Source: an uncultured Clostridia bacterium
GTDB lineage: Bacteria; Bacillota; Clostridia; Christensenellales; Borkfalkiaceae
NCBI GenBank assembly: GCA_947626105.1
Contig: CANQQY010000004.1
Location: 1 to 64,000 of the forward strand
DNA length: 64,000 bases
Reading direction: 5' to 3'
Every line of letters begins with the position of its first letter. The first letter of the stretch is position 1. The notes under the pieces were generated by a model. It made no database searches, was not told the origin of the DNA, and saw nothing but the letters and a program-made list of their open reading frames with translations. Below, one piece after another: positions 3,001 to 43,803 of this stretch. The position numbers and the translations under genes are program-made.

Positions 3001-3918
3001 TTCCCATTTTTGGGGAATGGGGGGCGTCGCCCGCCTGCCCTCATCCCGAGGCGAAGCCGAGCGGATCTTATAGACTCACGGGCGTCCGTACTTACGAGGG
3101 GATTCGCTCGTCCCGCGGGGCTCGGAATGAGGTACCCCCTCGAGGGGGGAGCCGAGGTAGCGGACTTCGTTCCTCGGGATTCTTCACATTCGTTCAGAAT
3201 GACGCGCGGGCGGTGGCGGACATGCCCCCTCCCGAGGAGGGGGGAGGGGGTGGGTAAAAACCTGCCCCCTTTGAAGGGGGCGGGTGGCGCGCCGTTCTCG
3301 GCGCGACAGGTGGGGGTTGCCTCGGCTCCCCTCATAGGGGAGATGTCACGAGCTTGCGAGTGACAGAGGATCTTGTCGCCCCTCATAGGGGAGATGTCAC
3401 GAGCTTGCGAGTGACAGAGGATCTTGTCGCCCCTTCCAGGGGAGATGTCACGAGCTTGCGAGTGACAGAGGATCTTGTCGCCCCTTTCAGGGGAGATGTC
3501 ACGAGCTTGCGAGTGACAGAGGGGTTTCCGAAACCCCTTTCCCCTAAGAGGGGCAGCGAGCCCCCCATCCTTCACGGCTTGCGCCGTGCCACCCGTCTCA
3601 TGCGGGTAGAGACCCGCGTAACTTCGCCCTTGCGGACTAGTGCCGCCCTTAGTGCACAAAAGAAATGCGGGCGGGGCGGTCACCGTTCGCGCGAGATAAT
3701 GCGCTACTTCGTCGCTGACGCTCCTCGTGCCGCGCTTAGAAAAATAAGAATGCGCGCGGGGCACTCATGTCGCAACGCGCCAAAAGTTATCAATTTTTGG
3801 CAGAATGCGTTGCTCCACCCCGGAGGGGGTAGGGCTTGGAGCGAGGAAACGGGCGTAGTCGGAGCATGCCCGCCTCGATCAGCGGCGACAGCTCTCCAAA
3901 GGGGCGGGCGAGAGAAAA
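3001..3918. repeat. gene-free 0.9-kb mosaic of dispersed palindromic repeats
   Basis: I see no gene here. Open frames exist on both strands, but they read repeat units (for example a recurring CHSQARDISP peptide) and lack Shine-Dalgarno sites. Modules, in order: a 92-bp palindromic element at 3041-3132; a covarying hairpin with stem ATTCT/AGAAT at 3179-3200; a 51-bp tandem array at 3341-3544; and two copies of a CTTCG...GTGCCGC-CTTAG element near 3621-3652 and 3706-3739. A block near 3590-3830 recurs inverted near 30720-30880. Confidence 0.75.
3341..3544 (+). repeat. tandem array, four units of 51 bp
   Basis: The AGATGTCACGAGCTTGCGAG block starts at 3341, 3392, 3443 and 3494, exactly 51 bp apart. 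Each unit holds a GTCAC/GTGAC hairpin and a CCCC-N-GGGG hairpin. The only differences are in the loop of the second hairpin (CTCATA, TTCCA, TTTCA). Single or double copies of the same unit recur at 8443-8480, 15712-15815, 21535-21630 (inverted), 30466-30520 and 30905-30950. Confidence 0.9.
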
Positions 3919-3966
3919 ATGCATAAAACTTTTTACCTTGCGCACATTGTGCGTAAGGAGGAATTT

Positions 3967-4734
3967 ATGAAGAAGTTTTTGGCAATCGGCGCGGTGGCGC
4001 TCGCACTCACTGCGGCAGTCACGGCGGGCGCGGTGGCATATACAGTCTCCGCTTCGCCTTCCGCCGATACGGCGCTTGAGCTTGCCGCGTCCGCCGCCGT
4101 TCTCCGTCAGGGGAGCAGGGGCGGCGAAGTAAAGGAAGTCCAGCGCAGATTGAAACAATGGGGCTATTATTCGGGCGCGGTGGACGGGATCTTCGGCGCG
4201 GGTACCCGGAAGGCGGTCATCGCCTTTCAGAAGAAGAACGGTCTTACGGCGGACGGCGTCGTCGGGAAAGCTACCTACCGTGCGCTCGGCATGAACGAGA
4301 GCTACAACGCCCTCGACGGAAATTCGGGCGGTTCGGGCAGCTCCTCGGGCGGCTCTTCTTCGTCGGGAAGCTCCTCTTACAACTCGTCCGATCTGTATGT
4401 GCTCGCAAAGTGCATCTATGCGGAGGGCAGGGGAGAGAGTTACACCGGGCAGGTTGCCATCGGCGCCGTCATCATGAACCGCGTCAAGAGCCCGTCCTTC
4501 CCCAATACGGTTGCGGGCGTCGTCTACCAGAGCGGCGCGTTTACGGCGGTCACGGACGGACAGATCAATCTGGAACCCGACCAGACGGCGTACAACGCCG
4601 CGCGCGACGCGATGAACGGCTGGGATCCGACGAACGGGTGCATTTATTACTATAATCCCGCCGTTGCGACCAGCTCGTGGATCTTCAACCGTCCCACTGT
4701 GACGGTCATCGGCAAGCATGTCTTTGCTAAATAA
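3967..4734 (+). CDS. sleB: spore cortex-lytic enzyme SleB
   Basis: 255 residues. It has an N-terminal signal peptide (about residues 1-30) and a peptidoglycan-binding domain (about 42-105, LRQGSRGGEVKEVQRRLKQWGYY). A Gly/Ser linker leads to a SleB/hydrolase-2 domain with the conserved YAEGRGES segment, whose Glu is the likely catalytic acid, and GAVIMNRV. In spores SleB hydrolyses muramic-delta-lactam cortex peptidoglycan during germination. ATG 3967 is chosen because AAGGAGG precedes it and the signal peptide starts there; an in-frame ATG at 3919 has neither. The next gene, 14 bp on, encodes its usual partner YpeB, so the two form an operon. Forespore expression is expected, but I could not fix a promoter. 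Confidence 0.93.
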   Translation: MKKFLAIGAVALALTAAVTAGAVAYTVSASPSADTALELAASAAVLRQGSRGGEVKEVQRRLKQWGYYSGAVDGIFGAGTRKAVIAFQKKNGLTADGVVGKATYRALGMNESYNALDGNSGGSGSSSGGSSSSGSSSYNSSDLYVLAKCIYAEGRGESYTGQVAIGAVIMNRVKSPSFPNTVAGVVYQSGAFTAVTDGQINLEPDQTAYNAARDAMNGWDPTNGCIYYYNPAVATSSWIFNRPTVTVIGKHVFAK

Positions 4735-4748
4735 AATAAGGAGAGATT

Positions 4749-6752
4749 ATGGAGAAGAAAATCGGTAAAAACGTATCGAGCGGCGCGGAAAAGGTAGAGC
4801 GCGTAGAGGAATATACGGCGGAATCCGTCAACGAACCGGTGAAGAAAACTTCCGCAAAGAAAAAGACGGCAGTCAAAAAGACGTCGGACGCGGCCGTGAA
4901 AAAGACGACGCCCAAGAAGTCGGCGCCCAAAAAGACTTCCGCAAAGCGCACCGCGCTCGAAAAGGCGGAGAAGAAGGAAAAGGCGGCAGCAAGCAAACGC
5001 CTCGAAAAGGCGAAGAAGAAGGAAGCCGCCAAGGAAGAGAAAAAAGCGGAGAAGATCGCCTTAAAGCAGAAGAAGCTCGAGAAAAAAGCGGAGCTCAAAC
5101 AGAAAAAACTCGACAAAAAGGCGGCTGCCGCCGAGAAAAAGGCAAACCGCAAGCAGAAGCGCCTCGACAAAAAGGCAGCGCTTCGTGAAAAGAGGGTCGA
5201 GAAAAAGGCGGAACGCGCAGCCCGCCGCGAACTTCTGAAAAACGAGACGAAAGCGGAAAAGCAGAAGCGCATCGAGCGGGAAAAGCGGGAACGCGTCGCG
5301 CTCAAACGGCAAAAGGCCGCCGCACGCGACAAGGCGCGCGAGGAAAAGATCAAATCGCGCAGAGCCGCGCATGCGAGAAAGGCGCAGGATAAAAAGCACA
5401 GGCGCGAACAAAAGACCGCGCGCAAGGAAAACCGCCGCGGGTTCGGCGGATGGCTCGCCGCCGTCATCTCTCTCGGCGTTGCGACGCTGGTTCTCGGCAC
5501 GATCGTCACGGCGGGCGCGTTCCGCATGAACGACATCACCCTTCAACAGGAGACAGGCGCGAGGGCGACCCTCTACGAGCTCGTTTCCGTCTCCGAGGAC
5601 ATGGACAACCAGCTCTCCAAGCTGCGCGTCTCCTCGGGCGTGGACGAACAGAGACAGCTTCTCACGAGCATTCTCGTAGACAGCGCGCTCCTCGAAAGCG
5701 GGCTCGAACGCATGCCCGTGGATCAAGCGACGAGCACGGACATTTCGGGATTTGTCAACAGAACGAACAGTTTTGCGAAGAGCATGCTCTCCCGCCTTGC
5801 GCAGGGCAAGACGCTGACGGCGGCGGAAAAGGAGAAGATCGCGACGCTCTATGCGATCAATTCCAAGCTAAGCAGCGAACTGAACAACCTTGCGACCCAT
5901 ATGACTTCGAACGACATCATGGACTTCATCGCAGGAAAAGAGGGTACCATGTCCGAAAGCTTCGGTTCGATCGGCGGCGGGATCCATGAAAAGGCGGAGG
6001 AAATCTCCGACGCGCCTTTCGCAAATGAGGGCAACATCGGCGAAAACAGGCTCACGTCGCTTCCCGAGATCACCCAAGCGGAGGCGGAAGAGCGGGTGAG
6101 AGAGTACTTTTCCGCATACCATGTCGCGGATGTGCGCTTCACGGGCGAGACTGCGTCGCAGGAAATGGCGTGCTACAATTTCGTCCTGGCCGATGAAAAC
6201 GGCACCGAGATCTTTGCGGAGATCACCAAAAACGGGGGGAAACTCGCCTTCTTCGACACCTACGAGCCCTGCACCGAGAAGAATTTCTCCCTGCCCGCCT
6301 GCGATAACCTCGCGAAGGAGTTTTTGGCGGGGCTCGGCGTTGAAAACGTCGAGGCGGTCTGGCTCTCCGACGCGGGCATGGTTGCCAATCTCACCTATGT
6401 GACGACGGAAAACGGCGTCCGCGTGTATCCCGAGATCATCCGCGTGCGCGTCTGCGAATCCAAGGGCAGAGTCATCGGCATCGACGCGAGGGGTTATCTC
6501 CTCAACAATGAGACGCATGCAAAGAAGGCGGCGCTTTCCGAGGAAGAGGCAAGGGGTCTCCTCTCCGGCGAGCTCGACGTTACCGCCGTGAATCTTGCGA
6601 TCATTCCCGTCGGCGGCGAAAACACGCTGTGCTATGAGTTCGCCTGCAACATGGGGGAGGAACAGTTCATCGTCTATCTCGACGCGAATACGGGCGCGGA
6701 AGTACAACTCTTCCGCGTGAGGAGAAGCGCAACGGGAAGCTATCTCGAATAA
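4749..6752 (+). CDS. ypeB: YpeB-family germination protein with a long Lys-rich N-terminal extension
   Basis: 667 residues; typical YpeB is about 450. Residues 1 to about 230 are almost wholly Lys, Ala, Glu and Arg (KKTSAKKKTAVKK, EKKAELKQKKLDKKA), low-complexity and strongly basic. One transmembrane helix (about 232-257, WLAAVISLGVATLVLGTIV) follows, then the extracytoplasmic YpeB region with repeated PepSY-like units (ITQAEAEERVREYF, LSEEEARGLLSG) to the C terminus. YpeB and SleB depend on each other for stability in the spore. The start has AAGGAGAG at good spacing and sits 14 bp after sleB. The assignment rests on domain pattern plus neighbour. The basic tail should lie on the forespore-core side of the inner membrane, which suggests nucleic-acid contact (inference). 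Confidence 0.88.
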   Translation: MEKKIGKNVSSGAEKVERVEEYTAESVNEPVKKTSAKKKTAVKKTSDAAVKKTTPKKSAPKKTSAKRTALEKAEKKEKAAASKRLEKAKKKEAAKEEKKAEKIALKQKKLEKKAELKQKKLDKKAAAAEKKANRKQKRLDKKAALREKRVEKKAERAARRELLKNETKAEKQKRIEREKRERVALKRQKAAARDKAREEKIKSRRAAHARKAQDKKHRREQKTARKENRRGFGGWLAAVISLGVATLVLGTIVTAGAFRMNDITLQQETGARATLYELVSVSEDMDNQLSKLRVSSGVDEQRQLLTSILVDSALLESGLERMPVDQATSTDISGFVNRTNSFAKSMLSRLAQGKTLTAAEKEKIATLYAINSKLSSELNNLATHMTSNDIMDFIAGKEGTMSESFGSIGGGIHEKAEEISDAPFANEGNIGENRLTSLPEITQAEAEERVREYFSAYHVADVRFTGETASQEMACYNFVLADENGTEIFAEITKNGGKLAFFDTYEPCTEKNFSLPACDNLAKEFLAGLGVENVEAVWLSDAGMVANLTYVTTENGVRVYPEIIRVRVCESKGRVIGIDARGYLLNNETHAKKAALSEEEARGLLSGELDVTAVNLAIIPVGGENTLCYEFACNMGEEQFIVYLDANTGAEVQLFRVRRSATGSYLE

Positions 6753-6765
6753 CTTCCGCGAAAGA

Positions 6766-6798
6766 AAAGCCGCACGGGCGATCCCGTGCGGCTTTTGC
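6766..6798. terminator. bidirectional terminator between ypeB and the phosphoribosyltransferase gene
   Basis: A 14-bp stem, 6766-6779 with 6784-6797, is flanked by A-run and T-run. The two genes converge on it, so it should serve both strands. Confidence 0.85.
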
Positions 6799-6806
6799 TA
6801 CCGCGC

Positions 6807-7439
6807 TTAAACGCGGCTGTAACCGTAAGAATTGACGAGCGCGTCGACCTTCCTCCCGCTGCGGCAGAGCGGACAGTCGCTCGCGCGGTAGGAGCTGTAA
6901 TCGGGCAGATCTTCCGCGCCGATGAGCCGCACGACGGGCACGCCGGGGATCTCGAACTTTCCGCCGAATACCGTCGCGACCCCCGCAACTTCCCCGCCGT
7001 AGTAGCGGATCCCGCGGACGGCGCTCATCGCGGTCATACCCGTCGTCGCCGTTGCAGTGAGAAGAAGCACGTGGCGGAAGCGCACATAGGGCAGCATGTT
7101 GTCGCGCAGGATGAGCTTTTCGTCGGCGGTGATCTCGGGGGAGATGACTGCGATCTCCTGATTCATGTTGAGGCCCGAGCCCGTCGCGAGTTCCTCCGCG
7201 ATGAACGCGCCGACCATTTTCGTGCGTTCCAGCGTGATGATCGTATCTACGGTGACATTCGTAAAGCTCTCCGCAAACAGCTTTGCGGCGGCTTTCGCGG
7301 CGTTCATCTCCGTCTTGACGCGGGTCATGTCGATGCAATAATTGACGTGGGAGTGCTGGGTCGCAAAATGCCCGGGAATGGCGCGGACGCTGATCTTCCC
7401 GTTGCGCTTTGCAAATAATTCGAATGCTCTTGATTCCAT
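6807..7439 (-). CDS. orotate-phosphoribosyltransferase-like protein with altered PRPP loop
   Basis: 210 residues with a type I phosphoribosyltransferase layout. The region HVLLLTATATTGMTAMSAV (about residues 122-140) aligns with the PRPP loop, normally V-hydrophobic-E/D-D-V-hydrophobic-T-T-G-G/M-S. The TTG is kept, but the acidic pair that contacts PRPP/Mg is replaced by Thr-Ala. A C-terminal DCPLCRSG gives a CxxC pair, unusual for OPRT. The start at 7439 has AAGGAG. The gene is alone, transcribed away from grpE, and not beside other pyrimidine genes, so real orotate transfer is doubtful. A regulatory or divergent PRTase role is possible. Family moderately sure, substrate unknown. Confidence 0.65.
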   Translation of the reverse strand: MESRAFELFAKRNGKISVRAIPGHFATQHSHVNYCIDMTRVKTEMNAAKAAAKLFAESFTNVTVDTIITLERTKMVGAFIAEELATGSGLNMNQEIAVISPEITADEKLILRDNMLPYVRFRHVLLLTATATTGMTAMSAVRGIRYYGGEVAGVATVFGGKFEIPGVPVVRLIGAEDLPDYSSYRASDCPLCRSGRKVDALVNSYGYSRV

Positions 7440-7469
7440 GGGAGAACTCCTTCTCTCGATCTTTCTCTT

Positions 7470-7498
7470 ATTTTAATACAATTTACTCCGATTGTAAA
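7470..7498 (-). promoter_or_regulatory. promoter of the phosphoribosyltransferase-like gene
   Basis: On the minus strand TTTACA (7493-7498) and TAAAAT (7470-7475) are separated by 17 bp. They lie about 30 bp upstream of the ATG, and an AAGGAG lies between. Confidence 0.6.
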
Positions 7499-7551
7499 TA
7501 CCGCCGAAAAAAATTTTTTCGGAAAAAACCCGCTTTTTTTGTAAAAAGCGT

Positions 7552-7580
7552 TTGATTTGACCAAAATCGCCTTATATATA
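7552..7580 (+). promoter_or_regulatory. putative grpE promoter
   Basis: TTGATT (7552-7557) and TATATA (7575-7580) are 17 bp apart, 22 bp before the grpE ATG. A 19-bp palindrome made of A and T runs (7504-7522) lies between the divergent genes. There is no CIRCE operator, and hrcA is not next door. Confidence 0.5.
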
Positions 7581-7602
7581 GGTGAAAATCAGGCGGTAGG
7601 AT

Positions 7603-8169: not shown

Positions 8170-8596
8170 AATTTCGCTCGATTTGTTTTGCGCTCGATGA
8201 ACCGACTAAGCGTTCCAAATTGTCATGTCGAGCGTAGTCGAGACATCTCTGCCTTGCTCTTGCGCGCAAAACAAATACGAGCGAGGAAAGTTACTTTTTT
8301 GGGATATTGAGTCACTGTCTCGTTCGCTTGTTACGACATTAAGCCGAAGGGGTTCGGCAAATCGAGTCGCCCACGGCGGAAGTGAATTCCGCCTAAGGCA
8401 AGTGAGCGGGAACGAAAGGCTGACTCCTTGGCGCCCCTTTCAGGGGAGCTGTCACGAGCTTGCGAGTGACTGAGGGGTTTCCAAAACCCTATCCCCCGCT
8501 GCGCGGGTACTTCCCCTAAGAGGGGAAGCAAGGGTGCCCTCTCGCCCCCCTCCAATCAAAATAAAATTCAGAAAAAAATCAAGGAGAATATAAAAA
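8170..8596. repeat. repeat mosaic in the grpE-dnaK spacer
   Basis: No gene is seen. The spacer holds a 109-bp inverted-repeat element with 19-20-bp arms at 8175-8193 and 8264-8283 (one indel). Inside it is the covarying hairpin ATGTC-loop-GACAT at 8225-8246. Further on lie an AAGCCGAA-GGTTCGGCAAAT module shared with 15505-15530 and one GTCAC-type unit at 8443-8480. AAGGAG before dnaK lies at 8581-8586. Confidence 0.7.
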
Positions 8597-11661: not shown

Positions 11662-11850
11662 TATGTAACGCGCGAGAACCCCATCAGTCGCGCAAGGACG
11701 GCGTTCTAAATCGTCATGGTGAGCGTAGTCGAACCATCACCTTATTACAATGTCTCCCCTGAAAGGTTCGCCAAGGGGGCGCCTGCGATGACAGCTCCCC
11801 TGCAAGGGGAGCCAAGGGAAGTCGTGCAAAAGCGGCGGGAGAGTTTTTTC
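11662..11850. repeat. short repeat mosaic before prmA
   Basis: It contains the covarying hairpin ATGGT-GAGCGTAGTCGA-ACCAT at 11716-11737 and fragments of the CCCCTGAAAGG / AGCTCCCCT repeat family. No gene is seen. Confidence 0.65.
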
Positions 11851-15101: not shown

Positions 15102-16187
15102 AGTTTCGCTCGATTTTTCGCAAATTTCTTTATGATTGGACTGCCCTGCGGGCGGCATATCAAGGTCAAAGAAATTTGCGAGGGGTTAGTTCTCTTGCCT
15201 TGTAATTACGATTCGGCCGTCCCTGTTCTGTTTCACAGGACAGTAAGGCTCCCGTGGGGTGCCAAATGGGGGCGTGCAGCGGCGGGAAACCCGCCACGCG
15301 CAGTAATTTGGAAGCATGCCCACCTCAGTCACCTACGGTGACAGCTCCTCCCAAGGAGGAGCCGAGGAAGGCCTACCCCTTCGGGGGGGAGGCTCCGCCG
15401 TAGGCGGTGGTGGGGGGAATCTCGCGGGGCTTCGAAAAGAAATGAACGAGCGAACCTTCCCTGTGCATCAATCAGGTCACTCCGAACATCGCTTTGCAAT
15501 TACATTAAGCCGAAAGGGTTCGGCAAATTGAGTGCGCTGCCGCAAAAGCGTGGTTTTGCTTCGCGCAGTAATTTGAGAACGAAGGGCGGGCGAGGTAATA
15601 ACCCTCATCCCGAGGCGAAGCCGAGCGGATCTCATAGACCCACTGACGTCCGTACTTATGAGGAGATTCACTTGCCCCCTTACGGGGCTCGGAATGAGGC
15701 ACCCCTTGTCGCCCCTTTCAGGGGAGATGTCACGAACGCAGTGAGTGACAGAGGATCTTGTCGCCCCTTTCAGGGGAGATGTCACGAACGCAGTGAGTGA
15801 CAGAGGGGTTTCAAAACCCCTTTCCCCTCACTACGTTCGGGGACTTCCCCTAAAAGGGGCAGCGAGAACCCTATCCCCCGCTGCGCGGGTACTTCCCCTA
15901 AGAGGGGAAGCAAGAGGGGACACCCTTAGCGCCCCTCATAGGGGAGCTGTCACGCTGCCCTTGCGTGACTGAGGGATTGTCATTTACCGCGTCATCCTGA
16001 GCCGAAACGGCTATACGGAGTCCGAAGCGCAATTTCCGAAGGATCCCGAAGAACGGAGTCCGAACTCTCATCTACGGGATTCTTCCCCCTCGACTACGCT
16101 CGGGGTCAGAATGACGCGCGGGGACATTATTCTTGCCTTCCCCTTGAGGGGAAGGTGGATCGCCGCTCTGCGGACTCCTCATCACAT
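15102..16187. repeat. gene-free 1.1-kb repeat mosaic
   Basis: No gene is seen. Contents, in order: a 62-bp inverted repeat with 13-bp perfect arms (15119-15131 and 15168-15180), opening a composite of about 240 bp that recurs at 18233-18477; a palindromic element at 15603-15699; two GTCAC-type units at 15712-15815; another near 15940-15975; and a large hairpin whose ends pair as ATCCT (15994-15998) with AGGAT (16040-16044). GTCAC loops here differ from those at 3341-3544 (GAACGCAGTGA and GCTGCCCTTGC). Confidence 0.75.
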
Positions 16188-19829: not shown

Positions 19830-20021
19830 CATGTTCGAAGGGGGAGCCGAGGGGTAGGCGCGTCATTCTGAACGAATGTGAAGAATCCCGAGGAACGGAG
19901 TCCGAACTTCCATCTTCGAGATCCTTCACCCCCTACGGGGGTTCAGGATGACGCGGTTCCTCCCAAGCCTTCCCCAAGAGCCAAAAACCGCCTGCCCCCT
20001 TCAAAGGGGGCAGCTGCATTT
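19830..20021. repeat. repeat mosaic between spoIIQ and the TasA-like gene
   Basis: It holds the covarying hairpin ATTCT-GAACGAATGTGA-AGAAT (19865-19886), nested in an element that runs to the matching GTTCAGGATGACGCG near 19940-19955. A CTGCCCCCTTCAAAGGGGGCAG hairpin lies near 19991-20013. Confidence 0.65.
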
Positions 20022-21333: not shown

Positions 21334-21750
21334 TGTTTACGGATCCTCTTCTCGCTACCCCCCTCCAACATAATTCTATGCACCTTGCTTCCCGGAAGGA
21401 TACTCTTCGGAAACGCGGTAGCCCCGCTGTCCCTTTTAGCGGGCTTCCTTGCTGCCCCTTTCAGGGGAAGTACCCGCGTAGCACCCCCTTGCTTCCCCTC
21501 ATAGGGGAAGTACCCGCGTAGCGGGGGATAGGGTTTCGGAAACCCCTCTGTCACTCGCAAGCTCGTGACATCTCCCCTAAAAGGGGCGACAAGATCCTCT
21601 GTCACTCGCAAGCTCGTGACATCTCAGGCGGAAAAAGGCTTCAAAAATAGAATGGTCGCCTTTTCCCGCCATCCCCAAGGAAGGACCCTATAAGGGGCGA
21701 CAAGGTTTTCTCTCCGTTCCTTGCGGGACAGTCTCCCAGAGGGGCGCAAA
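21334..21750. repeat. repeat mosaic upstream of the SipW operon
   Basis: Two inverted GTCAC-type 51-bp units lie at about 21540-21627, with CCCCTTTCAGGGG and CCCCTCATAGGGG hairpins around 21450-21510. No gene is seen. The SipW promoter should lie near 21340-21380, but no good -35/-10 pair stands out. Confidence 0.65.
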
Positions 21751-22191
21751 CAATAGAAGTGCGCGCGGGGATCGAACCCGTGGGTTCGCTCCCCTTGCCG
21801 GGGCATAAAAAATCCCCTGACAGCTGTGCACCCGGCGGGGATACTTCGTCGCTGGCGCTCCTCGTGCCGCCCTTGGTAGCACAATAGAAGTGCGGGCGGG
21901 GCGAACCGTGGGTTCGCTCCCCTTGCCGGGGCATAAAAAATCCCCTGACAGCTGTGCACCCGGCGGGGATACTTCGTCGCTGGCGCTCCTCGTGCCGCCC
22001 TTGGTAGCACAATAGAAGTGCGGGCGGGGCGAACCGTGGGTTCGCTCCCCTTGCCGGGGCATAAAAAATCCCCTGACAGCTGTGCACCCGGCGGGGATAC
22101 TTCGTCGCTGACGCTCCTCGTGCCGAGCTTCGACAACAAAAAGAACGTGCGCGCGGGGCGAACCGTGGGTTCGCTCCCCTTGGGATTGATC
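21751..22191. repeat. 128-bp tandem array carrying pieces of the adjacent tRNA-Arg 3' end
   Basis: Units begin with CAATAGAAGTGCG at 21751, 21882 and 22010; a fourth, diverged unit starts near 22138 and runs into the tRNA gene. Spacing is 131 then 128 bp. Each unit contains GTGCACCCGGCGGGGAT, identical over 17 nt to 22231-22247, the acceptor/T-arm end of the tRNA. Each also has a TCCCC...GGGGA hairpin beside a run of six A/T, like a terminator. The first unit has an additional T-arm-like GGGGATCGAACCC. No gene is seen. Confidence 0.85.
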
Positions 22192-22229
22192 AAAAAGTCC
22201 CTCGGGGCAGTTTGCCCGAGGGACTTTTT
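22192..22229 (-). terminator. tRNA-Arg terminator
   Basis: AAAAAGTCCCTCGGG pairs with the matching arm ending in CTTTTT. It starts directly at the CCA end of the tRNA with no spacer. Confidence 0.85.
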
Positions 22230-22305
22230 GGTGCACCCGGCGGGGATCGAACCCACAACCTTCGGCGTCGGAGGCCGACACGCTATCCAATTGCGCTACG
22301 AGTGC
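22229..22305 (-). tRNA. tRNA-Arg (anticodon CCG), CCA encoded
   Basis: 77 nt on the minus strand. The acceptor stem is GCACTCG/CGGGTGC with discriminator A and encoded CCA. The anticodon stem TCGGC/GCCGA encloses the loop CTCCGAC, whose central CCG reads CGG codons. The T arm has GTGGGTTCGATCCCCGC. A minus-strand TATAAT-like box lies about 35 bp upstream. Confidence 0.93.
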
Positions 22306-24863: not shown

Positions 24864-27800
24864 TCAAAGCGCGGGAGGCGGGGGAGGGGGAAGGGGAATA
24901 TCGGACGCCTTCCACTGCACCGTCAATTCTTCGCCCGTGAGGATGAGCTGCAACGTCTGACCGTTCAGAGAGATCTCGAGCGTGACCGTATCGCCGTCGC
25001 GGGAGAGCGTATACTGCGAACTCTCCGCGTCGCTGCCCTGCACAAAGTAGAGAGGAACTTTGCCGCCCTCCTTCGAAAGGCAGGTGACCGTGCTTCCGTC
25101 GTCGAGCGTCTTTTCGCCCTCGAACACAAAGCTGCCGTAATCCACTGCGCACGCCTCTTGTTCGGCGTTGTCGGAGCCGTTGGACAGAAGGATCTTTCCG
25201 CCGTCGAGGGTGAGCGTATAGACGACCGTATCGGGAACGGGGAAGCCAACGACGCTGAAAGAAAGCACTTGCTTGCCTTCCGCTACGGAAAGGGCCGCCT
25301 CTACATACATTCCGTTGAACGTTACGTCGAAAGAGGGCATGAGGTTGGCGCTGATCGCGGCGGTCTTGACGGCGATGACGTCCTCGCCGAGCGTGTACGT
25401 CCCCACAAAGGCGAGCGGGGTGAGGGCGAGTTTGGAGTATTCGGTCTCCCCGCCGTCTTTGGTGAGCGTGACGCCGCCGTCCGTGAAGAGAGCGGAGTAG
25501 CTCGTGTCGTTTACGGTAAAGGTTGCGGCGTTCCCGTCAAAGACTGCCGCGGCGGTCACGCCGTCCAGCGTAATATCTCCCGTCCGTTCGAGAACGAGCA
25601 CGCTCTCGCCCGCATAATATGTGCCGATCAGATCGGAGATGGCGGAATCGGTGTATACCATGTCCATGACCATACCGTAAGAATTGTCGTAAATGTAGGC
25701 GTAGAGATACAGTTCGCCGTACGGATTGAAGGCGATGACGAATGCGTCGCGGCCATTGAGGTCAACGAAGTGTTCGAGATAATAATCGTATTGTACTTCT
25801 TTGACCGCGCTGTCCGAATCCGAAACGTCCGTCGTCGAGATGGTGAATACGCCGTTCTCGTCGAGGGAGAAAGTCTCGTCATAGTATTCGCCGTGATAGG
25901 TGTAAGAGGAACCCTTTGCGCTCTCATAGGCTTCTTCGAGAACGTAGGACTCGTAGCTCTCCTCCTCCGTGACGTACGAATATATCGACGCGGCCAGACC
26001 GTAGCCGCTGGGCTCGATCATACAATAGAAGAGATCCTCATCCGTCTCCCCGAGAAAGCTGATCGCGGGAATGATATAATCGCCGAGATAATCGAAATCC
26101 CAGAAAAATTCATATTCTTCCCCGTTATAAATGATCTTTTTGATCTCCTGCGAAAAGTCGAAGGAAATGGTCTTTTCGGACGCGCCGCCCGTCGTATAGT
26201 TCCCCGAGAACGTCTCTTCCAATTCCGCGACGGCGGAAGTCGTATAATACGTCGAATAAATACCGTATTCGCCGTTATCCATATAGAGCGTGCAATATGT
26301 ATCGGGACCGAGATAGGCAAGGAACTGCTCCGTGGGCGTGTAACCGTCCTGGAACGGATAGGAGAAAAGGAGCGCGAGAGACTGTACATCCTCTTCGATG
26401 TAGACGAACCACGCCGTGACCGAATCCGTCAAACCGTCGTCGTAGCGCGAGATCGTCACCGTCTGGTCGGGATCGACGGTAAGAAGTTCGAAATTGTCCG
26501 TCATTTCCACGAAGAAATACTCGCGCGCGGAACCGAGGATGAGGTAATCCCCCTCGACTTTGCCGTTCAGATCGTATTCAAAATACATCGCAACATCGGT
26601 GCCGAGCTCCTCGAAGGTGACCGAGCCGAGCAGCGAGCAAGTAAAGCTGTATACGACGCCGCTCCCGTTCAGTCCGACGTTGAGAGGGACGGTCTCGGAA
26701 GCGCCGTCCTTTTCCACCGTGATCTCGCTGTCGTTTTCCGCGGAGAACTTGATCAACCCGTCCGAGCTGTACCAATCCTGCGCGATGAAATCGGGCGAAT
26801 AGGGAAGCAGCGCCGTCTTTCCTTCGCCGACGAGATAGACGTCCGCGCCGCAAAGCTGCACAAGATACTCCGTCTCTCCGTCCGTAAAGGCATATCCCGC
26901 GCCCTGCTCCGTCGCTTTCAGCTCGGAGGGGAAGGTCTCTCCCCCGAAGGTCACCGAACTGCCGTCCGACGACAGTTTTCCTTTCCCGGAAAGAAAATCT
27001 CCCGCAATGTCAAAGGAATAGGGAATGAGATCGTACACGCCGCCGTATCCGTCGTCCACGGTAAAGGACTCCGCCGTATATGTCAGAGTATAATAGGGGA
27101 AATCGTAGGCGTACGCGGAAAACGCGATCGTAACGGATCCGTCCGCCAAAGAGAAGGCGGTCGTGCCTTCGCCGACGGTCATTTCCTCGCCCGCCACATA
27201 AGTGCCCCAATCAAAACTGCCGTTTGCGTTCAGCGACGGATCGACAGTGTAATACATGTATGAATATTCGCTGTCCTCTTTCCATGCGCCCGCAAGCGGT
27301 TCGGGTACAACCTGGAAGCTCTCAACGGGCTCCGCGTCCTCTCCATAGAGGCCGAGCGTGCCGTCTGCGGTCAGCTTGAGGGTATATTGTGTGCCGTCCA
27401 TCTCAACGAAGATCTCCGTGTCCGCGCCTTCCCCCGTGATGCTCTTGACGGAGAACGCGTCCGCGCCGCTATAAGAGCCCGCCCCGAGATCGAGCACGCC
27501 GTTTTCATTCACCCATTTGCGGCCGAATGCGCCGACGTCCACGGGCTCCGCGGGTTTGCCGCCCTGTTCGCCGCCTTGTTCGCCGCCTTGCTCACCGCCC
27601 TGCCCGCCGCCTTGTTCGCCGCCCTGCTCGCCGCCTTGCTCACCGCCCTGCTCGCCGCCTTGCTCGCCGCCCTGCTCGCCGCCTTGCTCGCCGCCCTGCT
27701 CGCCGCCTTGTTCGCCGCCTTGCTCGCCGCCTTGCTCGCCGCCCTGCTCGCCGCCTTGCTCGCCGCCCTGTTCGCCGCCTTGCTCGCCGCCTTGCTCGCC

Positions 27801-27923
27801 GGAAGGCGTTTGTTGTCCGCTGCCTTCATCATCCGCAACGGGGGACTCGCTGCACGCCGCAACGCCCAGACTGAGGCTCCCGGCAAGAAGCAGCAACAGC
27901 AATGCTTTTCCGAATTTTTTCAT
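24864..27923 (-). CDS. large lipoprotein with about 20 GGEQ repeats
   Basis: 1019 residues. The signal peptide has lipobox LGVAAC. A short acidic linker is followed by about 20 units of Gly-Gly-Glu-Gln (about residues 39-122). The remaining 890 residues are acidic, Tyr/Thr/Ser-rich beta-repeat modules in which KLTADGTLGLYG-like, LDENGVFTIST-like and VTLTKDGGE-like strands recur. It ends in PPPPPPAL. There is no catalytic motif or sortase signal. Likely a membrane-anchored surface protein with the GGEQ segment as a flexible stalk (inference). The start at 27923 has AGGAGG. Confidence 0.78.
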   Translation of the reverse strand: MKKFGKALLLLLLAGSLSLGVAACSESPVADDEGSGQQTPSGEQGGEQGGEQGGEQGGEQGGEQGGEQGGEQGGEQGGEQGGEQGGEQGGEQGGEQGGEQGGEQGGGQGGEQGGEQGGEQGGKPAEPVDVGAFGRKWVNENGVLDLGAGSYSGADAFSVKSITGEGADTEIFVEMDGTQYTLKLTADGTLGLYGEDAEPVESFQVVPEPLAGAWKEDSEYSYMYYTVDPSLNANGSFDWGTYVAGEEMTVGEGTTAFSLADGSVTIAFSAYAYDFPYYTLTYTAESFTVDDGYGGVYDLIPYSFDIAGDFLSGKGKLSSDGSSVTFGGETFPSELKATEQGAGYAFTDGETEYLVQLCGADVYLVGEGKTALLPYSPDFIAQDWYSSDGLIKFSAENDSEITVEKDGASETVPLNVGLNGSGVVYSFTCSLLGSVTFEELGTDVAMYFEYDLNGKVEGDYLILGSAREYFFVEMTDNFELLTVDPDQTVTISRYDDGLTDSVTAWFVYIEEDVQSLALLFSYPFQDGYTPTEQFLAYLGPDTYCTLYMDNGEYGIYSTYYTTSAVAELEETFSGNYTTGGASEKTISFDFSQEIKKIIYNGEEYEFFWDFDYLGDYIIPAISFLGETDEDLFYCMIEPSGYGLAASIYSYVTEEESYESYVLEEAYESAKGSSYTYHGEYYDETFSLDENGVFTISTTDVSDSDSAVKEVQYDYYLEHFVDLNGRDAFVIAFNPYGELYLYAYIYDNSYGMVMDMVYTDSAISDLIGTYYAGESVLVLERTGDITLDGVTAAAVFDGNAATFTVNDTSYSALFTDGGVTLTKDGGETEYSKLALTPLAFVGTYTLGEDVIAVKTAAISANLMPSFDVTFNGMYVEAALSVAEGKQVLSFSVVGFPVPDTVVYTLTLDGGKILLSNGSDNAEQEACAVDYGSFVFEGEKTLDDGSTVTCLSKEGGKVPLYFVQGSDAESSQYTLSRDGDTVTLEISLNGQTLQLILTGEELTVQWKASDIPLPPPPPPAL
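27553..27806 (-). repeat. 12-bp minisatellite encoding GGEQ repeats
   Basis: About 20 tandem copies of a 12-bp unit (plus-strand TTGCTCGCCGCC or CTGCTCGCCGCC) with few changes, mainly TTC for CTC and one CCC. The period is a multiple of three, so gain or loss of units keeps the frame and only changes the stalk length. Confidence 0.92.
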
Positions 27924-30309: not shown

Positions 30310-31140
30310 GGTAGTAGAAAATTTGAGTTCTTGCCCACCACTTGAGGGGTGGGTGGCACGGCGTAAGCCGTGACGGAAGGGGTGTCGTTCCCGGCGCGCC
30401 TGTCCCCTTGGCTCCTCCCAAGGAGGAGCTGTCACCGCAGGTGACTGAGGTGGGCATCTCGGCGCCCCTTCCAGGGGAGCTGTCACGAACGTAGTGAGTG
30501 ACTGAGGGGTTTCGAACCCCCTTTTCCCTAAAAGGGGCAGCGAGGGAGCAGCCCTCATCCCGAGGCGAAGCCGAGCGGATCTCATAGACCCACGGGCGTC
30601 CGTACTTACGAGGAGATTCACTCGCCCCTTGCGTGGCTCGGAATGAGGGACCCCAAGTCCTACCCCTTTGGGAGGCTCCGCCGTAGGCGGTGGTGGGGGG
30701 GATCTGCCCCCTTTGAAGGGGTGGAGCAACTCGTTCTGCCAAAGATTGATAATCTTTGGCGCGTTGCGACATGACCGCCCCGCCCGCACGTTCTTTTGTG
30801 CACTAAGGGCGGCACGAGCGGCTTTGCCGCGAAGTTAGGCGGGTCTCTATCCGCGTGAGAGAGGTGGCGCGCGAAGCGCGACAGGTGGGGGTTGCCTTGT
30901 CGCCCCTTCCAGGGGAGATGTCACGAGCTTGCGAGTGACAGAGGGGTTTCCAAAACCCCTTTGGCTCGCTTTGTTCGCCACTTCCCCTAAAAGGGGCAGC
31001 GAGAGGGTCGTCCGAGCCCTTGTAATAATCAGGTCTATGCCCGAAACTGAAAATCCACCTGCTGTCGGCAGGTGGATCATTATTTTATTGTGCAGCTCCC
31101 TTTTAATAAAACCCCTTCCCAAATGGCCGAAAAATTTTGC
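30310..31140. repeat. gene-free 0.8-kb repeat mosaic
   Basis: GTCAC-type units lie near 30420-30445, 30466-30520 and 30905-30950. A palindromic element lies at 30553-30648. An inverted copy of the 3590-3830 block occupies about 30720-30880 and includes the CTTCG element with a different loop (CGGCAAAGCCG). A hairpin CCACCTG-CTGTCGG-CAGGTGG lies near 31052-31072. Open frames here only read repeats. Confidence 0.7.
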
Positions 31141-36434: not shown

Positions 36435-36457
36435 AAAATCAATTATCAGGAGAGAGT

Positions 36458-37498: not shown

Positions 37499-37513
37499 GA
37501 TATACGGAATTTG

Positions 37514-37542: not shown

Positions 37543-37861
37543 GCAATGCGGCCTTGCTTAGGGAGCCCAAGCCCTACCCCCTACGGGGGGAGGGTGGCAC
37601 GGCGTAAGCCGTGACGTATGGGGGGATAAGGTAAATGGGGGCAACCCCCACCTGCCGCGCTTCGCGCGGCACCCGCCCCCTTCAAAGGGGGCAGGTCTTG
37701 CCCTTGCTTCCCCTTTTAGGGGAAGTACCCGCGCAGCGGGGGATAGGGTTTTGGAAACCCCTCAGTCGCGCCAAGAGCGGCGCGCCAGCTCCCCTAAAAG
37801 GTGGCGACAAGGGAACCCCTCAGTCACCTGCGGTGACAGCTCCCCTACGAGGGGCGCCGAG
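37543..37861. repeat. repeat mosaic after galM
   Basis: No gene is seen. It has a GGCACGGCGTAAGCCGTGAC module shared with 30355-30375 and an AAGTACCCGCGCAGCGGGGGATAGGG module shared with 21490, 40680 and 15880. Two GTCAC-family hairpins with altered stems follow: GTCGCGCC-AAGAGC-GGCGCG near 37765 and GTCAC-CTGCG-GTGAC near 37823. Confidence 0.65.
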
Positions 37862-37890
37862 AAAAAACCCACGCGCAGTGCACGTGGGTA
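37862..37890 (-). terminator. terminator of the beta-helix lipoprotein gene
   Basis: Stem CCCACG/CGTGGG with a 9-nt loop, then TTTTTT on the minus strand. Confidence 0.7.
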
Positions 37891-37929
37891 ATTCTGTTAT
37901 AAAAAGTCGGTTTTTTCAAACTATGCGGT

Positions 37930-39678: not shown

Positions 39679-39708
39679 AAATTTTACTCCCATTTGAGGA
39701 TTTTCTTC

Positions 39709-39737
39709 ATCATACCTGATTTTTTGGAAAAAAACAA
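39709..39737 (-). promoter_or_regulatory. promoter of the beta-helix lipoprotein gene
   Basis: Minus strand TTGTTT (39732-39737), 17 bp, TATGAT (39709-39714). Confidence 0.6.
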
Positions 39738-39862
39738 GCGGAAATTTTTATTTTTCGGCGATTTCATCTTGATTTTTTCTCCCTCACAAAGCTGTCAAAT
39801 TTCCCGTGCGGGGCATAGGATAGAGTAACTGTACCCATGAAACACGCACGGAGGATGCACAA

Positions 39863-40633
39863 ATGCAGTGGTTTTTGTCTCTGCCCTCTTGGGAACAGGC
39901 GCTTTTTGCCTCTCTCATGCTCTTTTCGCTCACAACGCTCGGCGCGGCGTTCGTTTTCTTTTCCAAGGGAGTGAAGCCCGCCCTTCTCACTCTTCTCACG
40001 GGCGCGGCGGCGGGGATCATGATCGCCGCTTCCTTCTTTTCTCTCCTTCTTCCCGCCCTTTCCTACGAGAACGGGATCCCGCCCTATATCACCGTGACGG
40101 CGGGATTTTTGCTGGGGGGAGCCTTCATCATCGTGAGCGACGTGCTCCTCGGAAAACGGCAAAAAAAGGTTTCCCGCTTCGGAGACGAGAAGAACGCGCT
40201 CTTGTTCCTTGCCGTCACCATGCACAATATCCCCGAGGGCATGGCGGTGGGGGTGGCGTTTGCCGTCGCGGGCGGGGAGCATGCGGCTCTCTCTGCCCTG
40301 CTTCTGGCGCTCGGCATCGGGATCCAGAACTTCCCCGAGGGGCTGTGCGTCGCCTTTCCCCTGCGGGCGAAGGGGCTCTCGCGCGGGAAGAGCTTTTTCT
40401 TTTCGGCGGCGTCGGGATCGGTGGAGATCCCCGCTTGCGTGTTCGGCGCGCTCGCGGCGGGACTTGTCACGGGACTTCTCCCTTGGGCGCTCGCCTTCTC
40501 TGCGGGGGCGATGGTGGCGGTCGTCTGTTCGGAACTTGTACCGGAGTGTTTCGCCCAAAACAAGACGCTCGCGTCTGCGGGGCTCGTGCTCGGCTTTTGC
40601 CTCATGATGATCTTGGACGTCGCCCTCGGCTAA
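39863..40633 (+). CDS. zupT: ZIP-family metal transporter
   Basis: 256 residues with eight predicted membrane helices. The metal-site motifs are in helices IV and V: TMHNIPEGMAVGVAF and GIGIQNFPEGLCVAFPL, the HNxPEG/QNxPEG pair of the GufA/ZupT branch. A cytosolic Lys-rich loop (GKRQKKVSRFGDEKN) lies before helix IV. Likely imports Zn2+ or another divalent metal. GGAGG lies 8 nt upstream. Monocistronic. Confidence 0.92.
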   Translation: MQWFLSLPSWEQALFASLMLFSLTTLGAAFVFFSKGVKPALLTLLTGAAAGIMIAASFFSLLLPALSYENGIPPYITVTAGFLLGGAFIIVSDVLLGKRQKKVSRFGDEKNALLFLAVTMHNIPEGMAVGVAFAVAGGEHAALSALLLALGIGIQNFPEGLCVAFPLRAKGLSRGKSFFFSAASGSVEIPACVFGALAAGLVTGLLPWALAFSAGAMVAVVCSELVPECFAQNKTLASAGLVLGFCLMMILDVALG

Positions 40634-40860
40634 AAGGGGCGCCATGTAGTTTCCCTTGCTTCCCCTTGTAGGGGAAGTACCCGCGCAGCGGGGGATAGGG
40701 TTTTCGGGAACTAGGCGTTAGGAAACCCCTCAGTCGCGCCAAGGACGGCGCGCCAGCTCCCCTGAGAGGGGAGCCAAGGGTACGGGCTGCGGTGACAGCT
40801 CCCCTAAGAGGGGAGCCAAGACATTCTCCACGCAGGAAAAGATCGAAACCATGTAAAAAT
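40634..40860. repeat. repeat mosaic between zupT and the SDR gene
   Basis: AAGTACCCGCGCAGCGGGGG and AGTCGCGCCAAGGACGGCGCGCC modules. The latter is the altered-stem form of the GTCAC family, near 40730-40755. No gene is seen. Confidence 0.6.
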
Positions 40861-40906
40861 TTCCTTTTTTGCATAATGTTTTCTGCTTTCGGCCATACTT
40901 AAAAGT

Positions 40907-41740
40907 ATGGAACAAGAAATCAAACGGGAAAAAGAGCATTTGCCCGCGAGGAAGATCGGGATCGTCGTGGGGGGATCCTCGGGCATCGGCAGGGAGACCG
41001 CTCTGCGGCTTGCGGCGCGGGGATACCGCGTATACAACATCTCCCGCACTCCCTTCAAGGGCGATAGGGTGCAGACGTTTCCTGCGGACGCGGCGCAGGA
41101 GGGGGAGATCAAGAGCGCGATCGAGAAGATCGCCGCGGATACGGAAGGGATCGACCTTCTCGTTTACTCGGCGGGCTTCTCCATGGCGGCGCCCCTCGAA
41201 TATGCCAAGAGCGGAGATTACAGGTACCTCTTCGAGGTGAACTATTTCGGCGCCGTGGAAGCGCTCAAAGCGGCGGCGCCCCTCCTCAAAAAACGGGGCG
41301 GCAGGGCGATCCTTGTCGGCTCCCTCGGCGGAGATATGCCCATTCCGTACGACGGGTTCTACTCCTCCTCCAAGGCGGCGCTCGCGATGCTTGCGCGGGA
41401 GAGCGATCTGGAACTTAGAAAGCAGGGCGTGCGCGTGAGCGCGTTGCTCCCCGGCGGCACGGCGACGGATTTCACCTATGCAAGGCGTGTATACGGGGAA
41501 GAGGACGCCAAATCCTATACTCCCTCCGTGAAAAAGGCGTCGGCGGCGCTTGCGAATATGGAACAGGGGGGCATGAATCCATCCCTCGTCGCGGACGCGA
41601 TCGTCAAGCTCGCCGTAAAAAGGAATCCGCCCCCCGTCGCCGTTGCGGGCGGGAAAAATACCTTCGCGCGGTTCATGTATAAGCTCCTGCCCGAACGCGT
41701 CACCGATTGGTATGTGGCGAGAAGGTTCAACCAAAAGTAA
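40907..41740 (+). CDS. short-chain dehydrogenase/reductase
   Basis: 277 residues. Rossmann Gly motif VVGGSSGIGRETA, active-site Ser (VGSLGG) and YxxxK (FYSSSKAALAML). NAD(P)-dependent oxidoreductase of unknown substrate; the size and FARFMYKLLPERV near the end resemble membrane-associated SDRs acting on lipids or acyl chains. The start lacks a Shine-Dalgarno. A weak TTGCAT/CATACT pair 7 nt before the ATG hints at another leaderless start. Confidence 0.85.
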   Translation: MEQEIKREKEHLPARKIGIVVGGSSGIGRETALRLAARGYRVYNISRTPFKGDRVQTFPADAAQEGEIKSAIEKIAADTEGIDLLVYSAGFSMAAPLEYAKSGDYRYLFEVNYFGAVEALKAAAPLLKKRGGRAILVGSLGGDMPIPYDGFYSSSKAALAMLARESDLELRKQGVRVSALLPGGTATDFTYARRVYGEEDAKSYTPSVKKASAALANMEQGGMNPSLVADAIVKLAVKRNPPPVAVAGGKNTFARFMYKLLPERVTDWYVARRFNQK

Positions 41741-41783
41741 ACAGACCGTCTCATAATTTCAGGAATTTATCCCCCTCATAAAA

Positions 41784-41819
41784 TTGACAAGGAGAGGGGG
41801 AATTTGTTATACTTTTCGT
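41784..41819 (+). promoter_or_regulatory. promoter giving a probably leaderless fhs mRNA
   Basis: TTGACA (41784-41789), 18 bp, TATACT (41808-41813), 6 nt, ATG at 41820. AGGAGAGGGGG lies inside the promoter spacer and so is not in the transcript. Confidence 0.8.
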
Positions 41820-43484
41820 ATGAAAACAGACATTGAGATCGCACAGGAAGCAAAGCTCATGCATATCCGCGACGTCGCGGCAAAGGCGGGGCTCACAGAG
41901 GAAGAGATCGAGTACTACGGAAAGTTTAAGGCGAAGATCGGGCTCGGCGTCATGTCCCGCCCGAAAGAGGACGGTAAGCTGATCCTCGTCACCGCCATTA
42001 CGCCCACTCCCGCAGGCGAGGGAAAGACGACGACGACCATCGGGCTTGCGGACGGGCTCTCCCGCATCGGGAAAAGAGCCGTCGTCGCGCTCCGCGAACC
42101 CTCCCTCGGCCCCGTGTTCGGCATCAAGGGGGGCGCCGCGGGCGGCGGATACGCGCAGGTCGTTCCGATGGAAGAGATCAATCTCCATTTTACGGGGGAC
42201 TTTCACGCGATCGGCGCGGCAAACAATCTTCTCGCCGCCATGATCGACAATCATATCTTTCAGGGCAATGAGCTCAACATCGACCCCGAAAAAATCACAT
42301 GGCACCGCTGTGTGGACATGAACGACAGGCAGCTCCGCTGTATCGAGGACGGGCTCGGCGGCCCCAAATCGGGCGTGCCGAGGAAAGACGCCTACGACAT
42401 CACCGTCGCCAGCGAGATCATGGCAATCTTCTGCCTCGCGACCTCTCTTTCCGACCTCAAAGAGCGGCTCTCCCGCATCATCGTCGGGTACACCTACGAC
42501 GGGAAGCCCGTCACAGCGGGGGAATTGAAGGCGGCGGGCGCGATGACGGCGCTCCTCAAAGACGCTTTGAAGCCCAATCTCGTGCAGACGCTCGAGGGGA
42601 CGCCCGCCCTTGTCCACGGGGGCCCCTTTGCGAACATCGCGCACGGGTGCAACTCGGTCATCGCAACGAAAACCGCGTTGAAACTCGGCGATTACGTCGT
42701 GACGGAAGCGGGATTCGGCGCAGATCTCGGCGCGGAGAAGTTTCTCGACATCAAGTGCCGCTTTGCGGGGCTCAAACCCTCTGCCGCCGTCGTCGTGGCG
42801 ACGGTGCGCGCGCTCAAAATGCACGGCGGGCTTCCCAAGACGGAGCTTGGGAAAGAGGATCTCGGCGCGCTGGAACGGGGGATCCCCAATCTTTTGCGCC
42901 ATGTTTCGAATATGAAGAACGTCTACGGCCTCCCCACGGTGGTGGCGGTCAACCGCTTCCCCGCCGATACGGACGCGGAGATCGCGCTCGTCATCGAAAA
43001 GTGCAGGGCGCTCGGGGTCAATGTTGTGCTCTCCACCGTCTGGGCGGAGGGCGGCAAGGGCGGCGAGGCGCTCGCGAAAGAAGTCGTAAAGCTGTGCGAA
43101 GAGAAGAGCGCGCTTCGCTTCTGCTATGAGACCGATCGGGGTATCAAGGAAAAGATCCTTGCGCTTACCACAAAGATCTACGGGGGAGAGGGCGTCGATT
43201 ATACGCCCGAGGCGGAAGAGGAGATCGCGCGGCTCGAATCCCTCGGCTTCGGCAAGACGCCCGTCTGCATGGCAAAGACGCAATATTCTTTCTCGGACGA
43301 CGCGGCAAAACTCGGCGCGCCCGAACATTTCAGGATCACGGTGAGAAACGTCCGTATTTCCGCGGGGGCGGGGTTTGTCGTCGCGCTCACGGGAAATATC
43401 ATGACGATGCCGGGGCTCCCCAAAGATCCCGCCGCCGCCCATATCGACGTGGACGAGAACGGCAAGATCACGGGATTGTTTTAA
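41820..43484 (+). CDS. fhs: formate-tetrahydrofolate ligase
   Basis: 554 residues, full length. ATP loop [20 protein letters not shown], then [20 protein letters not shown] and NNHIFQG-type motifs of the family. It makes 10-formyl-THF from formate, THF and ATP, feeding purine and one-carbon metabolism (and acetogenesis where the other enzymes exist, which this window does not show). Start fixed at [11 protein letters not shown] by the promoter and family alignment. Confidence 0.97.
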
Positions 43485-43803
43485 TTTCAGGGAACCCTTG
43501 GCGCCCCTTTTAGGGGAGCCGAGAAGCCCCCTCCCAAGGAGGGGGTAGGGGGTGGGCAATAGTTCCAAATCACGTCACCCTGAGCTTGTCGAAGGGTCAC
43601 CGCATTATAATAAGGTGATGGTTCGACTACGCTACTTCGCGGGCGATGCCCGTTCGTGCCGCGCTTAGTACAATAGAATGCGCGCGGGGCACCATGACGT
43701 AATGAAAACGACACCCCCTCAGTCACCTGTGGTGACAGCTCCCCCTCAAGGGGGCGCCGAGAGTGGCGGAAAAGAGGGGGAGCCGAGAAGAGTATCAAGA
43801 TCT
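43485..43803. repeat. repeat mosaic between fhs and mutY
   Basis: It contains the covarying hairpin ACCCT-GAGCTTGTCGA-AGGGT (43577-43597), a CTTCG element with loop CGGGCGATGCCCG (43634-43668) and a GTCAC-CTGTG-GTGAC hairpin near 43721. No gene is seen. Confidence 0.7.

Follow-up and report, generated by a model that had tools for sequence, protein, structure and literature searches.

Scattered hairpins with a near-fixed GA/GA mismatch in an uncultured Clostridia bacterium resemble CGTC-tagged palindromic repeats

Why should short hairpins scattered along one bacterial contig change the letters of their stems and still stay paired? The question is raised by the window analysed here, a stretch of 64,000 nucleotides (positions 1 to 64,000 of contig CANQQY010000004.1, assembly GCA_947626105.1) from an uncultured Clostridia bacterium of the Borkfalkiaceae, in which an initial annotation had noticed six such hairpins. 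All six are present, with paired stems, where that annotation had placed them; the observation of a dispersed hairpin is sound, and the kind of element is known in outline. We found that each hairpin is a unit in which two covarying stems flank a near-fixed GA/GA mismatch, usually behind an unpaired tag, and that two units often stand as an inverted doublet. These elements are probably, though by no means certainly, CGTC-tagged, non-autonomous palindromic repeats of the repetitive extragenic palindromic (REP) type, recognised as folded single-stranded DNA by a putative factor; the step from hairpin grammar to factor is one that we infer. The copies in the window, with arm sequences and covariance model scores, are listed below.

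3178..3203, minus strand: single hairpin, arms ATTCT/AGAAT, core GAACGAATGTGA; 38 bits.
8222..8247, plus strand: single TGTC-tagged hairpin, arms ATGTC/GACAT, in the spacer between genes that we take to be grpE and dnaK; 39 bits.
11713..11738, plus strand: single CGTC-tagged hairpin, arms ATGGT/ACCAT, downstream of a gene that is presumably dnaJ; 40.4 bits.
15991..16045, plus strand: inverted doublet, arm 1, arms ATCCT/AGGAT, long inner region; 28.9 bits.
16078..16115, minus strand: arm 2 of the 15991 doublet, arms ATTCT/AGAAT, nested GAGCGTAGTCGA core; 23.1 bits.
19862..19887, plus strand: inverted doublet, arm 1, arms ATTCT/AGAAT; 38 bits.
19920..19952, minus strand: arm 2 of the 19862 doublet, arms ATCCT/AGGAT, inner stem ACCCC/GGGGT; 27.7 bits.
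43574..43598, plus strand: inverted doublet, arm 1, arms ACCCT/AGGGT, core GAGCTTGTCGA; 36 bits.
43618..43698, minus strand: arm 2 of the 43574 doublet, ATGGT/ACCAT, interrupted; identified by eye, without a model match.

The short loop that had been attributed to all six hairpins is absent at 15994-16044, where the arms enclose 41 bases. Exact copies of the loop GAGCGTAGTCGA lie at 8230 and 11721, as reported, and a third copy at 16101 is nested in a minus-strand hairpin; the hairpin at 3179-3200 is a minus-strand copy of that at 19865. The initial annotation had seen half of the unit, and it had missed the partner arms at 16078-16115 and 19920-19952, the interrupted one at 43618-43698 and the CCTC-tagged relatives described below. 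A further palindromic repeat is nested in arm 2 of the 43574 doublet, at 43640-43690, and comparable inserts lie at a like position in other copies of the same genome.

Pairing was assessed in 453,285 bases of the same genome (here the own genome; 1,644,984 bases in 32 contigs, 94% complete) and in the best 80 of 589 relatives. Most of these relatives are genomes of uncultured Clostridia, and one bears the title Candidatus Gallimonas caecicola; the nearest, with 94% DnaK identity, come from samples named Lapin, which we read as rabbit. Some own-genome stretches (C12, C14, C21, C23 and C24) were picked for known hits, and those of other genomes lay around model hits, so that element densities are not unbiased; copies sharing descent are not independent. 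When copies were chosen by the loop and its close variants only, 47 of 80 in the own genome were paired at 5/5 positions, where 1000 shuffles of the right flanks averaged 5.0 and never exceeded 14, and the relatives gave 28 of 59 (shuffled mean 3.0, maximum 8). The pattern TCA-N4-GA-inner-GA-N4-T had its four N pairs complementary in 49 of 579 matches in the own sample, compared with 0 of 107 in reversed sequence; the few of the 49 that lie in ATCA or CTCA contexts look like chance. A scan of 2.39 Mb for tag, GA..GA and one inner pair returned 443 candidates, whose outer pairs were complete (5/5) in 237, 4/5 in 24 and fewer in 182, and its reversed control (n=48) gave 0 at 5/5 and 1 at 4/5. 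Among 39 distinct hairpins chosen for pairing, two-sided changes were seen at five of the six pairs, and changes confined to one side at none. The stem changes are therefore coupled, as had been claimed, in the own genome and also in distant Bacillota families.

What had been described as a conserved loop is really a GA...GA mismatch pair around an inner stem that covaries as well. The unit runs in the order tag (GTC or CTC), A and four variable bases, GA, inner stem and loop, GA, the four complements and T. With the GA dinucleotides left free, 2.07 Mb yielded 326 tagged stems with 4/4 variable pairs, A...T and a paired inner base; GA stood opposite GA in 170 of them, the next combination occurred 6 times, and reversed sequence gave 2 of 103. 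The inner pair, although not required by the finder, was G-C, A-T or C-G in 202 of 206 hairpins, so two covarying stems flank a near-fixed mismatch pair. A pyrimidine precedes the first GA in 203 of the 206, and a C-GNA-G turn is found in 124. In DNA, sheared G.A pairs are favoured where Py-GA-Pu stands on both strands, and the C(GNA)G turn has unusual stability. Excerpts of the literature speak of an extraordinarily stable GCGAAGC mini-hairpin.

Tags and stem bases are less uniform than this core. In the own genome (loop-only choice, at least 4/5 pairs, n=52) we counted CGTC 30 times, TGTC 3 times and other contexts 19 times; the relatives (at least 4/5 pairs, n=36) had CGTC in 13, TGTC in 8, GCTC in 8 and others in 7. 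Nine own-genome palindromes that share the GA core and are fully or nearly paired have GAAG in place of the CGTC/TGTC tag, and may represent a separate repeat family. The first stem pair is A-T in 39 of 39 hairpins and the second T-A in 36 and C-G in 3, in rows chosen for pairing and for A...T; under loop-only choice, A-T holds the first place in 35 of 80 own copies and 31 of 59 in relatives.

The coupled stems had been read as selection on a folded molecule and not just copying. The exclusion of copying needs qualifying: the 237 perfect stems comprise 137 distinct sequences in 12 outer-stem types that recur across genomes (a thirteenth, TCTT, came from a separate scan). With so few types, a few lineages copied whole, the very explanation that the initial annotation had named as its own undoing, can account for much of the stem variation. 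Two-sided changes with few intermediates can also arise by template switching at quasi-palindromes, so covariation alone is no proof of selection; perfect two-sided stem changes carry this warning with them. Taken to its end, this argument becomes an explanation by mutational bookkeeping, in which passive copying and template switching keep hairpins perfect with neither factor nor function. Excerpts of two papers (PMC8604942, PMC7202029) describe template switching as homogenising the arms of inverted repeats, and the scarcity of one-mismatch stems, most being either perfect or far from paired, fits such a process. However, it should also have paired up GA/GA, and fully Watson-Crick bases at these positions occur in 23 of the 326 stems, against 13 in reversed sequence and 170 with GA/GA. 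The near-fixed mismatch is better evidence than covariation because template-switch correction should erase it. The unpaired tag, and the absence of A from the four variable 5' positions of the 237 perfect stems, are likewise left unexplained, and we give this account little credence.

The hairpins often occur in inverted pairs with their tags outward, in doublets of about 70-200 bp. Our finder, which required exact arm pairing, GA/GA and head-to-head order, recovered 14 doublets among 51 hairpins of the own genome; a tighter version gave 11 doublets and 24 singles (35 units), some singles having degraded partners. Two forms recur there: in the first, the arms are joined by CAC-spacer-GTG and a GTTCYAATYAC-like flank lies outside the tag; in the second, the arms are joined by CCC-spacer-GGG and CCGC lies outside. 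The two arms tend to be unlike. Among 68 doublets from 21 sources, stems were identical in 4, against 15.7 expected, and none of 5000 shuffles was as low; no doublet of the 68 had the same stem and the same core in both arms. With copies collapsed in a first doublet set, identical stems still numbered 4 of 42, against 9.8 expected (P 0.001). Spacer ends paired 3/3 in 47 doublets, 2/3 in 20 and 1/3 in 1, counts made without a shuffle control, and covaried (CAC/GTG 14, CTC/GAG 14, CCC/GGG 11 and CTT/AAG 8 of 68). Because its arms are unlike, a doublet escapes being a single perfect long palindrome, an arrangement expected to be unstable. Local pairing within each arm, combined with differences between the halves of a doublet, is the trace expected of a constraint acting on the small hairpins.

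Which known repeats does this resemble? The E. coli REP with its transposase TnpA-REP, a REP-associated tyrosine transposase (RAYT), shares a tagged imperfect hairpin, a conserved in-stem mismatch, doublets and intergenic location, but its tag is GTAG and its mismatch AA-GC, whereas here we find CGTC, GA/GA and no Y1 match in the genome. REP doublets forming hairpins (REPINs) likewise consist of two inverted hairpins and a spacer, apparently spread as a unit. REPINs of Pseudomonas use a GTAG tag and a resident RAYT; here there is neither a GTAG tag (GTC or CTC precedes the stem A) nor a RAYT gene that we could find. In excerpts of PMC8266576, the ends of IS200/IS605 elements also carry a hairpin with a 5' tetranucleotide guide, although here no transposase gene lies between the ends. 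The same excerpts report that correcting the stem mismatch of the E. coli REP impairs TnpA-REP activity (PMC8266576), and this requirement is, by analogy, the closest functional parallel for GA/GA.

The closest match of all is a family already named in print, so that the initial annotation's remark that such hairpins lack a settled function was fair but incomplete. As described in the available excerpts of Di Nocera, De Gregorio and Rocco (2013, PMC3733652), CGTC-tagged REPs share the unpaired CGTC/TGTC/CCTC tag (here on most copies, not all), a stem base of A-T followed mostly by T-A, and inverted, tag-outward (head-to-head) doublets that are mostly intergenic; head-to-head doublets predominate there and tail-to-tail ones are rare. 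Their arms are also unlike, heterodimers being predominant in CGTC-2 and CGTC-3; perfect long palindromes are noted there, too, as unstable; and a linked transposase is absent, which we checked here for Y1 and by eye. In the same excerpts, stems are 8-9 bp with loops of 4-5, unlike the 5 bp, GA/GA and variable inner stem seen here, where loops often have 3-4 bases or are long; this difference is judged by the text, and the published figure may already draw GA/GA in lower case. Tails there are mostly CCA, and here CCC, CAC, CTC or CTT, mostly pairing across the doublet. Our host belongs to the Bacillota, outside the five phyla that the excerpted text names for CGTC repeats. A row of the RepRanger table, as excerpted from PMC12306157, lists Bacillota genomes, so REP-like repeats in that phylum are not new in general. 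To the published picture the present analysis adds the GA/GA grammar and its spread within Bacillota; it also shows, for a new host group, that identical stems are avoided, and it gives a negative Y1 test. The mobiliser of CGTC-tagged REPs was left open in 2013, according to the same excerpts (PMC3733652), and in the later literature we recognised no paper that names one. Literature searches by the literal hairpin strings returned no paper, and those by the peptides that such repeats would encode, or for palindromes in Clostridia, only papers that were or looked unrelated.

The elements are mainly intergenic, with 7 of 54 own-genome elements inside predicted genes and 2 at their edges (home-made gene calls). 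At L147:634-2706, the called start of an open reading frame (ORF) runs through REP arms (peptide RYAQDDAVEAQDD), probably a wrong start call. Of the 36 distinct own-genome spacers in which elements lie, 27 separate genes of the same direction, 6 convergent genes and 3 divergent ones, and the divergent class is below its share of intergenic bases (one-sided p=0.047, on the same gene calls). Such a bias is what an RNA element might show, with hairpins that protect or end mRNAs or block read-through and RNA selection that keeps the pairing, and folding full doublets as RNA does give very stable structures (-44.6 and -52.8 kcal/mol; z -8.6 and -7.3). Short hairpins alone, however, are not unusually stable as RNA (z -0.43 and -0.49). 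RNA would be expected to favour GNRA tetraloops, and the common turn here is C-GNA-G. Wobble pairing would predict an excess of G.T, which is absent from the small sample of 24 one-mismatch stems (4 T.G, 7 C.A or A.C and 13 others, some surely chance matches). A search of the window against Rfam at the gathering threshold matched tRNA only, the hairpins matching no family. Many REPs are transcribed and may act as RNA, according to the excerpts of Di Nocera et al. (PMC3733652); for the present elements we consider an RNA role rather improbable.

We then asked how far the element extends and whether its sites differ between genomes. Under strict filters the covariance model matched 39 of 121 family genomes and 27 of 299 genomes of a phylum sample, and copy counts are minimum values, as no more than 63 candidates per genome were scored in the family set and 25 in the phylum set. 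The same hairpin occurs in distant families, with doublets in 6 of 10 distant genomes read, and an exact 25-base copy was found in 33 viral-contig stretches. In one distant genome (G215; L150 and L151), 11 hairpins occur singly, all of them on the same strand and with a short CCC..GGG hairpin behind each; several are about 400-500 bases apart. At the site of the 43574 doublet, the spacer is 322 bp in the window, with the start of the next gene chosen by eye. Matching spacers in the 10 of 12 congeners with both flanking genes in the locus measure 889, 29, 165, 0, 389, 8, 278, 11, 12 and 5 bp, lengths taken between alignment ends with four hand-subtracted; six of the ten are thus 29 bp or shorter. 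Spacers between grpE and dnaK range from 40 to 430 bp in twelve hand-picked loci, and the four shortest, along with some long ones (L031, L032), lack the hairpin. In one such spacer (L027:9669-9850), four successive hairpins lie 49-52 bases apart. The added spacer DNA is a mosaic of several repeats, and therefore indicates gain or loss of repeat DNA rather than of one element with known ends. A search for empty sites by flank matching, with 107 elements, returned 38 matches; in most of these a repeat had matched a repeat, and the result is not used as evidence.

Could a Y1 transposase mobilise these elements? The own genome gave no match to Y1_Tnp (PF01797) at E<=0.001; of 14 control genomes, 5 were positive. 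Nor was there an association: Y1 occurs in 8 of 24 family genomes with at least 5 copies and in 37 of 97 others (p=0.81), and in 18 of 27 carriers and 147 of 272 non-carriers of the phylum sample (p=0.23). The fetched flanks of Y1 loci, from 20 of the 45 Y1-positive family genomes, held the GA hairpin in none of 20, several flanks having ended at contig ends. Y1 was accordingly rejected as the mobiliser. The 334 ORFs lying within 1 kb of hairpins were grouped into clusters, of which the 25 largest, judged by eye, included no recognisable transposase and look like housekeeping genes.

The elements might instead be relics, descendants of repeats moved by a transposase that is now lost, and on their way to extinction. 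This explanation overlaps the one we prefer, and excerpts of Di Nocera et al. (PMC3733652) suggest as much for such repeats. It accords with the lack of a Y1_Tnp match in the own genome and with 24 of 35 units being single or interrupted. On the other hand, some element segments in congeners (G423, G424 and G427) reach 92-94% identity, against 70-82% in flanking genes, which would fit recent spread, though other copies are 74-88% identical; all these values come from short alignments of which the best were picked. The absence of the GA hairpin from the 20 Y1 loci is a further point against, a lost enzyme thus need not have been Y1. As a full account, we think relics unlikely.

We therefore return to recognition of a folded DNA strand as our preferred explanation. 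When the DNA becomes single-stranded, for instance during replication, each arm would fold separately as a hairpin, stabilised by a tandem sheared G.A step and, in many copies, by a C(GNA)G turn. A factor would bind tag and hairpin through the G.A step, rather as TnpA-REP of E. coli depends on a mismatch bulge in its REP, and would help the element to copy or move. Such a factor would not be a Y1 enzyme detected in the own genome; supply in trans, a factor of a different kind or its loss may each apply. More specifically, a non-Y1 system processing single-stranded DNA may read the unpaired CGTC/TGTC tag together with the tandem sheared G.A step and favour unlike arms; this is a tentative proposal that we hold to be doubtful.

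Several observations weigh against this explanation. The mobilising enzyme was not found, in a search confined to the Y1 family. Copying accounts for part of the pattern, given the few stem types. Palindromes with other flanks share the core, too: of 52 own copies with at least 4/5 pairs, 19 lack a CGTC or TGTC tag, and nine of these have GAAG. The sheared G.A geometry and the hyperstability of the GNA turn are presumed for these hairpins. The two isolated hairpins tried as DNA (-1.8 and -2.6 kcal/mol; z -0.39 and -0.53) are predicted to be no stabler than shuffles. By energy, four whole doublets fold as one long hairpin, and in the CAC/GTG form this places the arms at least partly in internal loops. 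Pairing of the bases that flank the tags on the outside is 3/3 in only 19 of 68 doublets. Viral contigs, in a set chosen by one exact hairpin, gave identical stems in 4 of 10 doublets, so the unlike-stem rule is not universal, and the stretches read from two distant genomes, G215 (11 hairpins) and G290 (9), contain no doublet. At the 43574 site, spacers of comparable or greater length (165-889 bp) occur in 4 of 10 congeners, and neither a target duplication nor a clean empty site at the nucleotide level was established.

The window also contains relatives of the main element with a CCTC tag.

3040..3131: related CCTC-tagged doublet, 3040-3067 on the plus strand (21.0 bits) and 3101-3131 on the minus strand (14.2 bits, E=0.19).
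15604..15631, plus strand: related CCTC-tagged hairpin; 21 bits.
30554..30647: related CCTC-tagged doublet, 30554-30581 on the plus strand (21.0 bits) and 30615-30647 on the minus strand (14.1 bits, E=0.21).
48280..48307, minus strand: related CCTC-tagged hairpin; 21 bits.

These relatives (21 bits) belong to repeats that span 3037-3138, 15602-15705, 30551-30654 and 48219-48308, and all four first arms have an extra C in the 3' arm. A second abundant repeat, built of CCCCT..AGGGG and GTCAC..GTGAC hairpins, lies at 3328-3545, 8426-8534, 15704-15914 and 21486-21625, with further sites at 30406-31004, 37700-37862 and 40650-40820; some of its copies have a GA...GA core flanked by paired bases. About three direct repeats with a period of about 131 bases occupy 21750-22182, near a tRNA-Arg gene (22229-22305), and direct repeats of about 124 bases, 90% alike, overlap predicted ORFs at 27554-27801.

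The proposed recognition code, comprising tag, outer stem, GA/GA, inner stem and unlike arms, gives an annotation rule for these elements in Bacillota and provides a bait with which the binding factor may be found. If a non-Y1 system does read the tag and the G.A step, then GA/GA would supply the recognition code that has been missing for a superfamily of repeats without a known mobiliser.

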